DNA from: Chitinophaga pinensis
Lineage (GTDB): Bacteria > Bacteroidota > Bacteroidia > UKL13-3
NCBI GenBank assembly: GCA_945870425.1
Contig: CAMBSD010000004.1
Coordinates: forward strand, 62,001-126,000
Direction: 5' to 3'
Length of the DNA: 64,000 nt
How positions within the stretch are numbered: position 1 is the stretch's first letter; each line of letters begins with the position of its first letter. The position numbers and the translations under genes were made by a program. The notes below the pieces were generated by a model. It was not told where the DNA came from and searched no databases. It worked only from the letters and a program-made list of their open reading frames with translations. Positions 11,663-17,201 of this stretch are shown here, piece by piece.

Positions 11663-14167
11663 TTAAGCAAGGACGTGCGCTTTAGTATTATTTTTTTGTT
11701 TTTGTAATTCTTCAATTTTGGCAATCAACACCTCTTTCTTAATAGGTTTCACCAAAAAATCATTAATGCCTGCTTCGAAGCATTTTTGGATGTCCTCTTC
11801 ATCAGCATCCGCTGATATGGCTATGATTGGGATATTTCTATCTAATTCGAATTCATCATCCTTACGGATATGATAAGCTGCCTTTAAACCATCCATGATG
11901 GGCATCTTAATATCCATCAACAAGATGTCGAAACTTTTCTCAGTCAATTTATTAAGGGCCCCCTCGCCATTTGAAACAACAGTGCAGATGTGGCCTTTGC
12001 TCTCTAGCATTTTAACCAAAACCTTCTGGTTAGTAGGGTTATTCTGTGCAATTAATATTTGTATAGGACCCGTTTTAAATGAATCATTTAGATGATGTTC
12101 ACTTAATAACTCTACTGGGACTGCTTCTACATTAAGATAAACAGTAAATTCTGTCCCTTGTCCTTCAACACTTTGCACTTCGACTTTGCCCTGCATTTTT
12201 TTTGCAAAGTATTGGGTTAAGAATAAACCTACCCCAAAACCTGATTTTTTGTTATTTAAGGTATCTAAATCAGCCGTAGGTTTGAAAACGTTTTTAAGTT
12301 TATGGCTATCTATCCCACTCCCTTCATCGCTTACTTTTATTTGAATGGTAATTTTGTTTTGTTCGTTCTTTGATTCGCTTTGAGCAGCCTTCATTTCAAA
12401 CTTAATAACACCAGATTCAGAGTATTTAAGTGCATTGCTTAACAAGTTATCTATGATACTTAAAAACTTAAATTTATCTGCAATTAAATATTGTGGCACA
12501 TCTGGATATACCATCTGACTAAATAACAAACCCTTTGAATGACACTGATGTTGGTATGATTTTAACAAGGGTTGTAGGTTGTCAATCAAATTGAATTTAA
12601 TAGGAAAAAGCTTTGAGTTACCTGAATCCACCTGCAAATAATGAATGATATTGTTCATAACAAATAATAACTCATCACTTGAAGATTTGATACCTGATAG
12701 ATTCTCTTTTAACTCAGTCAAATTTCTACTTTCACCCGCCAAACCAGAGAGACCAATGATTGAATTCAATGGATTTCTTAATTCACTATTTACTTTGTTA
12801 AGTATATTGCTTTTGGTTTCACTGCTGATTTCTAGTACTTTCCTTTTTCGATTTGAAGTTATGAGGTAAAACAGCATAAAACTAATCAATATTAAAAAGA
12901 AAATACCTAATCCAAATCCAAGTAGCAGAACATTTTTACGCTGCAAACTCAATTCCTTATCTTGTAGTTCAAGTTTTTTTGTCTCGTTATCCTTAGCTAA
13001 TTTGTTTATTTGACTTTGTTTTTGTTTACCTGCATAATCCATTTGAAGATCGGCCATTTCATTGGCTTTATGGGGGCCAACCACTTCTTTTTTTGCCTTT
13101 TCCGCTTCATTTTTATAATACAAAGCCTTTACTGTTTCTCCAAAATTTTCATACATGCTACTCATTAATTCTAATGAAAGGGCATAATCTTTTTTGAAAT
13201 TGAGTTGCTTGGCCATATTAGTTACCTTTTCAGCATAGAACAATGCAGAATCTCTGTTATTCAACTTTACATGCGCAGCAGCCAAATTCTGATATGTTGA
13301 AATCACATCATGTTTGTCATTCAGTCTATCATCGAATGTCAATGCCTCATATAAATTCACTAATGCTTTTTTTACTTGACCTTTGTTTGTATAAATGCTG
13401 CCAATATTATTTAACACCGTGCTGATATCGTTAATACTACCCAACTTCTTAAATACTTCAAGGCAGTTGTTGTAATAGTAAAGTGCTTTAATTTCACTTC
13501 CTCTCAGATTATAAATATTAGCAAGGTTATTTGCCAATTCAGCTAATGAAAGTTCATCACCAACTAACTTCTCAAGTTCATAAGCTCTTAAATAAAACTG
13601 CTCAGCTTTATCATAGTTTTCCATTTCAAGGTATATACCACCAATATTATTCAAGGTTTTAGATACCCTTTTATTGTCATGTAAATCTTCAGAAATCTTT
13701 AGTGAACCCAAATAATATCTTAGCGCTTTAGGGTAATCTCCCTTGATATTGGCCAGATTACCTAAACTATGATAAGCAAGTGATATAGCACCTAAATCCT
13801 TACATTTTAAAGCTTGACTTAATCCTAGTAAAAATTCGGTATGTGCTTTTTCATAATCGCTTTTTCGTTTCTCATGTATACCAAATACTATGTGTGCTAA
13901 AGCCCTGCCTTTATCGTAATTTAATTTATTAGAAAGATTAAATGCTTGCTTAGCAAAGTCGATTGATTGAGTGGGATTGGTATTTTTTACAACAAGGGCG
14001 ATGGCATTTAGAATATCTACTCTTTGCACATCATTGGCATAAGGTAGCAGTGTTTCCAAACTGTCTAACTCATTTTCGGCTTTTACTTTGCTAATATCAG
14101 CGAAAAGCCCAATTAAGCATAGCGCTGTCAGGATGAGTAATTTTCTTAATTTATTGTGAGGCAACAT
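11663..14167 (-). CDS. TPR hybrid sensor histidine kinase with degenerate phosphotransfer sites
   Basis: 834 residues from the ATG at 14167, chosen because it opens a signal peptide (LLILTALCLIGLFA) and a TAnnTTTG box lies just upstream. About eight TPR repeats (to ~residue 390) face the periplasm, followed by a coiled coil, one membrane helix (~420-440), HisKA, HATPase_c and a receiver domain. The ATPase boxes look intact (LLSNALKYS, DEGSGI, GFGVGL). In the H box, NSELRNPLN has Ser461 where the phospho-accepting His should be. In the receiver, AQNNPTNQKV has Gln708-Asn709 in place of the Mg-binding acidic pair, although Asp752 (LLMDIKMP) and the Lys of FLVKPI remain. It probably cannot run a normal phosphorelay. 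There is no neighbouring regulator gene. Confidence 0.88.
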   Translation of the reverse strand: MLPHNKLRKLLILTALCLIGLFADISKVKAENELDSLETLLPYANDVQRVDILNAIALVVKNTNPTQSIDFAKQAFNLSNKLNYDKGRALAHIVFGIHEKRKSDYEKAHTEFLLGLSQALKCKDLGAISLAYHSLGNLANIKGDYPKALRYYLGSLKISEDLHDNKRVSKTLNNIGGIYLEMENYDKAEQFYLRAYELEKLVGDELSLAELANNLANIYNLRGSEIKALYYYNNCLEVFKKLGSINDISTVLNNIGSIYTNKGQVKKALVNLYEALTFDDRLNDKHDVISTYQNLAAAHVKLNNRDSALFYAEKVTNMAKQLNFKKDYALSLELMSSMYENFGETVKALYYKNEAEKAKKEVVGPHKANEMADLQMDYAGKQKQSQINKLAKDNETKKLELQDKELSLQRKNVLLLGFGLGIFFLILISFMLFYLITSNRKRKVLEISSETKSNILNKVNSELRNPLNSIIGLSGLAGESRNLTELKENLSGIKSSSDELLFVMNNIIHYLQVDSGNSKLFPIKFNLIDNLQPLLKSYQHQCHSKGLLFSQMVYPDVPQYLIADKFKFLSIIDNLLSNALKYSESGVIKFEMKAAQSESKNEQNKITIQIKVSDEGSGIDSHKLKNVFKPTADLDTLNNKKSGFGVGLFLTQYFAKKMQGKVEVQSVEGQGTEFTVYLNVEAVPVELLSEHHLNDSFKTGPIQILIAQNNPTNQKVLVKMLESKGHICTVVSNGEGALNKLTEKSFDILLMDIKMPIMDGLKAAYHIRKDDEFELDRNIPIIAISADADEEDIQKCFEAGINDFLVKPIKKEVLIAKIEELQKQKNNTKAHVLA

Positions 14168-14182: not shown

Positions 14183-14297
14183 GGTGTTTTTTGTAGTTAA
14201 AAATCTACCCTTAATAGATAATTTTATCATTTCAAGAATAAAGTCAAAACGAAATAAATAAGCACCATTGCAAAATCAAAGATACTTTAACTCAAAA

Positions 14298-17201
14298 CTA
14301 TTTCCCTCCCAACTGTTGGTACCTTTGCATAGCCCCTTGCGCTTCTTGTGTTCTCCCAAGTTTGTTATATGCATTAGCCAAATCGGCCCAAGCCTGCACA
14401 AAGTTTTGATTCAATCCTAAACAATATTCGAAAGATTCTGCTGCCTTTGAAGTATTGTTGGTTGTTTCATATGCCTTACCCAAATAATAATAAATTTCAG
14501 GAATCTGCCCACCATTTTTAATTGATTTTTCAAGTGTAGCAATAGCCCCATAAGTATCGTTTAAATTCAATTTTGCTAATGCAACATAGTAATAAGCCTC
14601 TGTCAAATTTTCTTTCAATTTAATGGCTTGCTCTCCAATCTTTATACAATTTTGAAAGTCCTTTTTGTTAAACGCTAACAAGGCTTTGTTTGAATAAGCT
14701 GAATAATTTTCAGGGTATAAGGCAATAGATTTATCAAACTCCATATTTGCTGAATCAAGGCTATTGGCTCCCATCAAAGCAAAGCCATACATACGATGCG
14801 CCTCCTCACTCTTGTCATCCCATTTTACAGCTTCTCTGAAATAATAAACAGCTGAATCGATTTTTTGTGAGTCAATAGCTCTATAACCCAAAGGCATCCA
14901 CCAAACTTGACGTTTGACAACTATTGCCAGTGGCACATCATCTGCCTTTACTTCAAACACAGTTCCTTTAGGAGGAAAGCCACCATTTAGAAGTTGGGTT
15001 TTAGAATATGTTCTTGTAGTTAATATTTCATAATCCCAAAACTGTTTTTCTTCCTCGTAGTCACGTGTCCAATATACATTGATGCTATCGCTTAATCGTT
15101 TTGTGAAATAAGAAGCCGTTAAAGGCTCATTGTTAACTACAACAGTTAACTTTTTATTTTTAGGTTCGTTATTAGCTATCCATTCAGCTGCTGCTCTAAC
15201 AGAGTTTGAATAATAATCTGTTTCATAATTGCCATAAGCACCATTTATACCACCTACAAATTCATTGAAATATACGTACTCGTTCGGGTGGTTTTTTATC
15301 ATCCATAAGGTTGACTTACTCGCCAATCCAAACATCACAGCCAATAGTAAATATTTCAACCAACTGGGTTTCGCAAGTTTGTACAACGAATCCCAACCCA
15401 AAGCTGCCAATGCTGCAAGCGATGGATAGATAAACAAATAATGTCTCCAACCATTATAGTAGGTGATGTTCTTCATTTCGGCATACACAATTGGGAAAAT
15501 AACGGTAAACAAAACAAGTGCAATGGCCAGTTTATTTTTATTGTTTTTGAATACAAAATAAGCACCAAGGAAAGCCGATGCAATGCCTGTCAAAACAAAT
15601 AAAGGAAGGGTAATTCCTAAGAATTTTAGTAGATAATACCAAGGCGTATAAATCATGTAAGTTTTTTGACCTTCCCACAATTCAAGGTTATAAGCATAGA
15701 AAGCATTACCACTCGACTTTGTTAAGGCTTGCAAAGGATTTTCAATCGGCCTGAATTGGCCATAAGGCCATAAACTCAAACCAAACATATAACCCAAAAC
15801 AGCGGCACATGATAATACAAGGGCATAAGGCCAAATGAGTTTAAGAGCTTTGCCGAAGCTTTCTTTTTTAGCATATAGTAACCATAGGATGCCCATAAAT
15901 AAACCCAAATAGGCAACCAATAAAACCCCAACAATACGGGAACCAATGGCTACCCCCAAACCCATAGCAAATACAAAGACAGCACTGGCATTGAATTTAG
16001 GAAGGTTTTTGAGGATTCTGATAATGCCATATACTCCTATGGCGAAGCCTGTGGCAAGCGGAATATCCGTTGGATTGTTCATAGAATGCCCAAAGAAAGA
16101 AGGCGTTAAGAAGATAATCCATAGAGCCATCAATCCAGCTCTCCATCCTGCCAATTCAAATGCTATTAAACCACAAAAGATTACTGCAATTAAACCATAT
16201 ATAGAATTAAGTAAATGCCTTGTACCAAACTCTCCCCAACTTGGTCCATAGTTTTTATTGATGTAGGATGCTATTACATTGATATGCTCTCCATAAAATG
16301 GATAATCGCGATGTGAAGTAAAGCAGGTTGTATCTTTTCCATCTGACTCAAAATATTTAAGCATGTTATAACCATACTCATTGTGCAATTTCGAATCCCA
16401 TGTAATACCATAATCAAAACTTTTTGATGGCATAAAATAAATCATGAACAAGCATGAAACTGCGAACAACAACCTATATAAACCAGCATTTCTACTTGAT
16501 AAATTCATTCCCGTCTTAAAGGATTTAATCGGACTTAATATAAACCAATTAAGTATATATGTAAACCAACTTATTGGTGTTGCTATGATATTTACAAATG
16601 ATGGAATTGCTGATTTTTCAGCAGCACTAATAGCAAATTCTTGAATGTTAATTTCAGATAACTGCAATTGCAATAAATTATTCTGATAGCTGTTATCAGT
16701 TAGGCAAGCATTTTGAACTAACGTCTCAAAATAGTCTGTTTTAACAAGCATAATTCCAAACTCGTTATCACTAACTAAAGAAGGAGTAAAAAACCTATAA
16801 AAATGATTGTATATTTTCAATTGCCATGGTGCCTTAACCTTAGTATCAGCAAGCCTAGAGGCCATGTAAACTGTATCATTCGCAATGCTTTTTTTATTTG
16901 AATTATACCAACCCAAAATAGCATTTAGGTTCAGTTTCAGGATATCATCCACCCAAACAAGTATACTACCTTGGCAGAGGTTTGTTAGATTTGATAAGTC
17001 ATCTACAAAAAACAAACGGGCTTTTTGTAACAATTCAGATTGCGATTTTTCGATAGCTGATTTTGTATTGTCATCACATACAATTAGAGCATCAATATCA
17101 CTTTTTGATTTATTAATACTTTGTAAAAATTGTGAGGTTTCTTTATCCGAATTTGCCTTGTAATTGATTACAAAAGTTAACCTTGACTCAATGCGTTGCA
17201 T
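14298..17201 (-). CDS. Membrane glycosyltransferase-like (GT39 type) protein with C-terminal TPR
   Basis: A 967-residue, three-part protein. Residues 1-200 have the outline of a degenerate GT2 nucleotide-sugar fold (ILVWVDDIL) but no clear catalytic signature. Residues ~240-690 are polytopic membrane helices with a large loop containing DYGITWDSKLHNEYG and MNNPTDIPLATG, resembling lipid-phosphate-sugar (dolichyl-phosphate mannosyltransferase-like, GT39) enzymes that glycosylate on the outer face of the inner membrane. The last ~230 residues form about six TPR repeats ending GGK. It is the last gene of an operon after a GT2 enzyme and a methyltransferase (gaps of 2 and 4 bases), so the GT2 could make the polyprenyl-phosphate sugar this protein uses. 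The acceptor is unknown. Confidence 0.75.
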   Translation of the reverse strand: MQRIESRLTFVINYKANSDKETSQFLQSINKSKSDIDALIVCDDNTKSAIEKSQSELLQKARLFFVDDLSNLTNLCQGSILVWVDDILKLNLNAILGWYNSNKKSIANDTVYMASRLADTKVKAPWQLKIYNHFYRFFTPSLVSDNEFGIMLVKTDYFETLVQNACLTDNSYQNNLLQLQLSEINIQEFAISAAEKSAIPSFVNIIATPISWFTYILNWFILSPIKSFKTGMNLSSRNAGLYRLLFAVSCLFMIYFMPSKSFDYGITWDSKLHNEYGYNMLKYFESDGKDTTCFTSHRDYPFYGEHINVIASYINKNYGPSWGEFGTRHLLNSIYGLIAVIFCGLIAFELAGWRAGLMALWIIFLTPSFFGHSMNNPTDIPLATGFAIGVYGIIRILKNLPKFNASAVFVFAMGLGVAIGSRIVGVLLVAYLGLFMGILWLLYAKKESFGKALKLIWPYALVLSCAAVLGYMFGLSLWPYGQFRPIENPLQALTKSSGNAFYAYNLELWEGQKTYMIYTPWYYLLKFLGITLPLFVLTGIASAFLGAYFVFKNNKNKLAIALVLFTVIFPIVYAEMKNITYYNGWRHYLFIYPSLAALAALGWDSLYKLAKPSWLKYLLLAVMFGLASKSTLWMIKNHPNEYVYFNEFVGGINGAYGNYETDYYSNSVRAAAEWIANNEPKNKKLTVVVNNEPLTASYFTKRLSDSINVYWTRDYEEEKQFWDYEILTTRTYSKTQLLNGGFPPKGTVFEVKADDVPLAIVVKRQVWWMPLGYRAIDSQKIDSAVYYFREAVKWDDKSEEAHRMYGFALMGANSLDSANMEFDKSIALYPENYSAYSNKALLAFNKKDFQNCIKIGEQAIKLKENLTEAYYYVALAKLNLNDTYGAIATLEKSIKNGGQIPEIYYYLGKAYETTNNTSKAAESFEYCLGLNQNFVQAWADLANAYNKLGRTQEAQGAMQRYQQLGGK

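Follow-up and report, generated by a model that had tools for sequence, protein, structure and literature searches.

The stretch of DNA analysed here, hereafter the window, is 64 kb long with a GC content of 34.7%, and is part of a contig (G000:C4) from the 2.96 Mb genome of an uncultured Bacteroidia bacterium (G000). A gene of the window, named P0001, codes for a protein of 834 amino acids when the ATG at 14167 is taken as the start and of 855 amino acids with the alternative in-frame ATG at 14230. The HisKA, HATPase_c and Response_reg domains of P0001 follow one another in the order of a hybrid histidine kinase (Pfam), and no PAS match was obtained with Pfam, TPR repeats being present instead. 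The TPR region, located behind a signal-like N-terminus, is presumed from the inferred topology to be periplasmic, and the predicted transmembrane helix which follows it aligns with the C-terminal helix of the TPR-only orthologs described below. The coordinates are collected in Table 1. Upstream of P0001, on the minus strand (14298-17201), lies a gene for a 967-aa protein that, judged by eye, spans the membrane several times and carries TPR-like repeats in its C-terminal part; outside the genus this gene is not conserved next to the kinase.

Table 1 Features of the P0001 locus, with positions in the window.
Feature	Position	Strand	Evidence or remark
sucD (succinyl-CoA ligase alpha subunit), directly downstream of P0001	10736..11620	minus	same strand
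Pseudo-hybrid histidine kinase gene (P0001), TPR-TM-DHp-CA-REC, 834 aa	11663..14167	minus	Pfam; dN/dS 0.054 versus sister species
TPR region, N-terminal, residues ~25-400	12968..14095	minus	Pfam TPR_12 E 1.1e-30 and other TPRs
Predicted single transmembrane helix, residues ~411-439	12851..12937	minus	hydrophobic stretch LLLGFGLGIFFLILISFMLFYLIT
DHp/HisKA domain, residues ~440-516	12620..12850	minus	PF00512 28.7 bits at 454-515 (Pfam cut-off 26.9 bits)
Ser461 codon AGT at the phospho-acceptor His position	12785-12787	minus	same residue in sister species G001
CA/HATPase_c domain, residues ~541-690	12098..12547	minus	PF02518 68.5 bits
Pseudo-receiver domain, residues 704-819	11711..12058	minus	PF00072 92.1 bits; dN/dS 0.02
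Gln708-Asn709 codons replacing the receiver acidic pair	12041..12046	minus	orthologs mostly E-D or D-D

The H box of P0001 reads NKVNSELRNPLNSIIGL, with a serine at the position of the acceptor histidine. In the receiver, of sequence ILIAQNNPTNQK, the acidic pair is replaced by Q708 (codon CAG, 12044-12046) and N709 (codon AAT, 12041-12043). This pseudo-receiver has the REC fold (PF00072) with Q-N at the acidic pair and, as the aspartate D752 (codon GAT) is retained together with the switch lysine K807, is not an Asp-less one. The residues N578, D614, G616, G618, G645 and G647 of the ATP site (N, G1 and G2) are all retained in P0001, and across the 35 orthologs D614 was found in 35/35 and N578 in 34/35. 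The codons and the six ATP-site residues thus bear out the preliminary description of this gene, which had read Ser461 in place of His, a loss of the acidic pair at Gln708-Asn709, a retained Asp752 and switch Lys, and sound ATP-binding motifs; the Ser and Gln-Asn changes were found again in a second species. Another histidine of the DHp domain was considered as the acceptor and rejected, the sole nearby one (NNIIHYL, helix 2) being unconserved among orthologs. The AlphaFold model (pLDDT 82) predicted an ordinary DHp-CA-REC fold, in which the DHp domain has two long helices with Ser461 in the first, and the Foldseek matches of this model include ShkA, HK853 and DivL (4q20).

The acceptor position was then scored in other kinases. 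Histidine was present in 23/23 of the other HisKA matches of the host genome (L210 included), in 20/20 scorable non-orthologous kinases of the host and related genomes, and in 79/79 wider homologs, and the published frequencies of loss are 0.9% for His in HisKA and 2.0% for Asp in receivers (PMC12632262). The sister species G001 (CANHJJ010000018.1, Bacteroidetes bacterium isolate RE-23may17-51), a separate MAG of the same genus, has the same Ser and Gln-Asn, with 98% protein identity between the two P0001 proteins. Since these changes are shared by G001 while the other HisKA of the genome keep their His, they are due neither to chance nor to error. The overall NG86 dN/dS between the two species was 0.054 (14 nonsynonymous and 60 synonymous changes), with 0.053 for the TPR, 0.036 for the DHp, 0.10 for the CA and 0.02 for the REC, from counts that are small (nonsynonymous to synonymous, 1:7 for the DHp and 1:11 for the REC). 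Two close pairs of relay-intact orthologs gave 0.066 each. The pseudo form is therefore under selection, dead domains included, as dN/dS is low across the domains and near that of the relay-intact pairs; such a pairwise value is blind to the difference between a pseudo-kinase in use and a fold kept for the stability of the TPR part. No faster erosion of the DHp or REC than of the TPR was seen in this genus. The domain identities between the pseudo form and a canonical ortholog (G000-G033: TPR 44, DHp 51, CA 40 and REC 49%) are similar to those between two canonical orthologs (G033-G006: TPR 42, DHp 52, CA 36 and REC 43%), so that little besides the relay residues has changed disproportionately in P0001, whose divergence from canonical orthologs does not exceed theirs from one another across genera. 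A decaying pseudogene or an assembly error, to which relay residues broken here and retained in relatives might point, is thus hardly credible: the frame is open, and this reading was rejected on the conservation of the residues in a second MAG and on a dN/dS of 0.05 after the loss. The preliminary description had raised the case of homologs with His together with a sequencing error in this gene; many orthologs do have His, but the error does not hold, as the second species shares the changes and selection persists.

Orthologs of P0001 were found in 35/64 genomes of the host's family (5/14 genera), and a sample of 395 genomes of the class yielded none outside the family, the next best match there being at about 240 bits. 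In all of the 34 orthologs with enough contig to be scored, the gene that follows on the same strand is sucD, and this constant neighbour makes the orthology positional as well as based on sequence. A second sucD copy (G059:C22:3537-4403, L197) was observed in a different context, in a bin that possibly holds a second organism. A search of the literature for a TPR kinase adjoining succinyl-CoA synthetase returned nothing relevant, and matches in a scan for Bacteroidetes-type promoters were no more frequent than expected by chance.

The relay is fully canonical in 17/35 orthologs. The acceptor position is His in 23 of them and Ser, Gln, Lys or Arg in the other 12: Ser in three (both g1 genomes and G007 of g7), Gln in five and Lys in one ortholog of genus g6, and Arg in three orthologs of g8. 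The receiver is damaged or missing in 14/35 orthologs, being absent from four; six orthologs, all from g3, have Asn in place of the acceptor Asp, G007 has Glu there, and several show an altered acidic pair. The three g8 orthologs with Arg (G008, G019 and G075; L064-L066) have the H box FYRELNSAIH and a strongly eroded DHp, 35% identical to that of G029 versus 74% for the G033-G029 pair; their receiver, by contrast, is of canonical type and under constraint (dN/dS about 0.03-0.04). In G026 (L060) the His is kept, but N578H (N box), D752N and K807E inactivate the protein from the other end. Four orthologs (G028, G077, G080 and G081; L063, L054, L061 and L062) combine a deleted receiver with Gln at the His position, and their pairwise dN/dS of 0.20-0.32 could reflect a relaxed constraint in this g6 Gln lineage. 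Parsimony on a species tree built from rpoB and sucD required at least four changes of the His state and at least seven of the relay state. As the relay is canonical in g3, in part of g6 and in G029 of g8, a canonical ancestor of the kinase-bearing clade is the most likely. The Ser of g1 and that of g7 are best read as two separate losses; one loss followed by a regain of His in g6 takes an equal number of steps but requires a two-base reversal.

The TPR region is kept in all orthologs and stands alone in a sister clade. There (g2, g9, g10 and g11), a TPR-TM protein of about 430-450 aa, without kinase, is encoded 83-167 bp upstream of sucD and ends just past the TM helix. It was found in 12 genomes (L171-L176, L178-L181, L183 and L190), the G020 copy being a contig-end fragment; for the labels of the tree, G032 and G085, in neither of which sucD was found, were scored as TPR-only from their genus. 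In a profile-profile comparison the TPR-TM-only proteins matched the N-terminal half of the orthologs with a probability of 100 (E 3.5e-65), and the best match of the G010 protein in the host genome is P0001 (181.7 bits, the next one at 133). In G021 (L177) the TPR-TM gene is lost and its neighbours are still present. Unrelated genes occupy the position upstream of sucD in the outgroup genera. Whether one of the two clades lost the kinase or the other gained it, TPR-TM was linked to sucD before they split, and TPR-TM can occur with no kinase attached.

A DHp domain that lacks the histidine is unable to take up phosphate for transfer, and Mg2+ binding should be poor in a receiver that lacks the acidic pair. 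The ATP-site residues are retained and the constraint is strong, which points to a role exerted through conformation or through the binding of a partner. We consider it probable that P0001 is a periplasmic TPR-TM sensor whose pseudo-hybrid kinase, under selection but dead for phosphotransfer, works through its conformation, through nucleotide binding or through a partner to which it binds. The pseudo-kinase with a TPR sensor put forward in the preliminary description is in this respect supported as real and selectively maintained, with relay residues gone at both ends, and the mode of signalling suggested there is plausible. In such a protein, the periplasmic TPR sensor would be joined via one TM helix to a cytoplasmic DHp-CA-REC module, whose DHp, with Ser461, would no longer be able to autophosphorylate on His and whose receiver, deprived of the acidic pair, would be expected to bind Mg2+ poorly. 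The module would still dimerise and probably bind nucleotide, because it is retained under purifying selection. The TPR input would then be relayed through conformation and contacts between proteins, whether inside the homodimer or with a partner, itself a kinase or a response regulator. As D752 and K807 remain, small donors or another kinase may still phosphorylate the receiver to some extent.

Two other explanations of the retained module were weighed. The TPR-TM part might be the whole function and the kinase a passenger, kept solely because it helps the protein to fold, to dimerise or to be stable in the membrane, and eroding stepwise (His, Asp, receiver, then kinase) as two-component repertoires shrink. 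The TPR-TM-only orthologs upstream of sucD in the 12 sister-clade genomes speak for such a passenger, as do the four orthologs without receiver, the replaced acceptor Asp of others, and the occurrence of non-canonical relays in kinase-poor genomes. The median number of kinase-like matches, a crude proxy taken from the first-look candidates of the search, was 32.5 in genomes with a non-canonical ortholog versus 78 in those with a canonical one, and independent pairs gave 5:0 (p 0.0625, with a threshold chosen after the data were seen). The estimated genome sizes are 2.85 Mb and 3.7 Mb, respectively, and on independent pairs this association was in the right direction and not significant (median p 0.25). 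That relays erode as two-component repertoires shrink is a lead. In the genus of P0001, however, the DHp (dN/dS 0.036) and the REC (0.02) are as constrained as the TPR (0.053), and the ATP-site residues, which a passenger would not need, are retained; we therefore regard the passenger explanation as unlikely.

The retention of every ATP-site residue checked would also suit a CA domain that still works as a kinase and whose substrate, in a heterodimer, is the His of a second kinase, only the acceptor role having been abandoned. A heterodimer between a pseudo-kinase and its paralog is documented for ChrS/HrrS (PMC9491836), and the host genome contains several hybrid kinases with 30-33% identity to P0001. 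Against this stands the search for a partner: the neighbourhood of P0001 consists of sucD and unrelated genes, with no dedicated partner gene, and no co-occurring partner was found. Hpt (PF01627), sought as a partner, was present by manual count in 15/16 of the searched genomes with a canonical relay and in 9/17 of the others; genome size and completeness confound this difference, and no single Hpt is conspicuous. A kinase acting in trans seems to us more doubtful still than a passenger, and the selected, phosphotransfer-dead sensor is the reading we prefer.

Pseudo-histidine kinases are already known. In DivL from Caulobacter crescentus, a Tyr occupies the His position (PMC4211667), and this protein, which has PAS sensors and binds ATP poorly, senses DivK~P in a conformational or partner-binding role (PMC4211667). 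P0001 resembles DivL (4q20 among its Foldseek matches) by a HisKA-HATPase core with a non-His acceptor and a retained fold, and differs from it by a TPR sensor in place of PAS sensors, a pseudo-receiver and intact ATP motifs. Pseudo-receivers make up about 6% of bacterial receivers (PMC12632262); P0001 has, like them, a REC fold without residues needed for phosphotransfer, but retains the Asp, loses the acidic pair, and has lost the kinase His in the same protein. The dead kinase ChrS of Corynebacterium glutamicum, which matters via a heterodimer with its paralog, carries a laboratory frameshift in the CA domain (PMC9491836), whereas in P0001 the acceptor His was lost naturally and the CA domain is retained. 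The canonical TPR hybrid kinases of g3, part of g6 and g8 (G029) are direct orthologs of P0001, with the same architecture and the same sucD neighbour, and differ in retaining the His, acidic pair, Asp and Lys. In plants, some members of the subfamily II ethylene receptors lost kinase-motif residues and the receptor is still functional; these are gene duplicates within one genome, whereas the P0001 group consists of one-to-one syntenic orthologs across species. What is new here is the repeated loss of the relay at one syntenic locus, and also the TPR hybrid form, the losses at both ends and the kinase-free sister form.

The loss of the acceptor His is rare and the origins of pseudo-kinases are poorly known. 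At the present locus, at least seven changes of the relay state, in varied ways, affected the syntenic ortholog of one family, with strong selection where it is best measurable. Active and dead orthologs that share the sensor and the neighbour are thereby matched, and the role of a histidine kinase without phosphotransfer becomes testable by swaps. We propose, tentatively and as somewhat less probable than not holding, that this is a syntenic sensor locus where the phosphorelay was repeatedly discarded and an ATP-binding DHp-CA-REC scaffold stayed under selection, giving a natural series that starts with a working hybrid kinase and runs through forms without His, forms without Asp and receiver deletions, with the kinase-free TPR-TM protein in the sister clade. 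If this is true, the ancestral kinase would already have had an important output independent of phosphotransfer.
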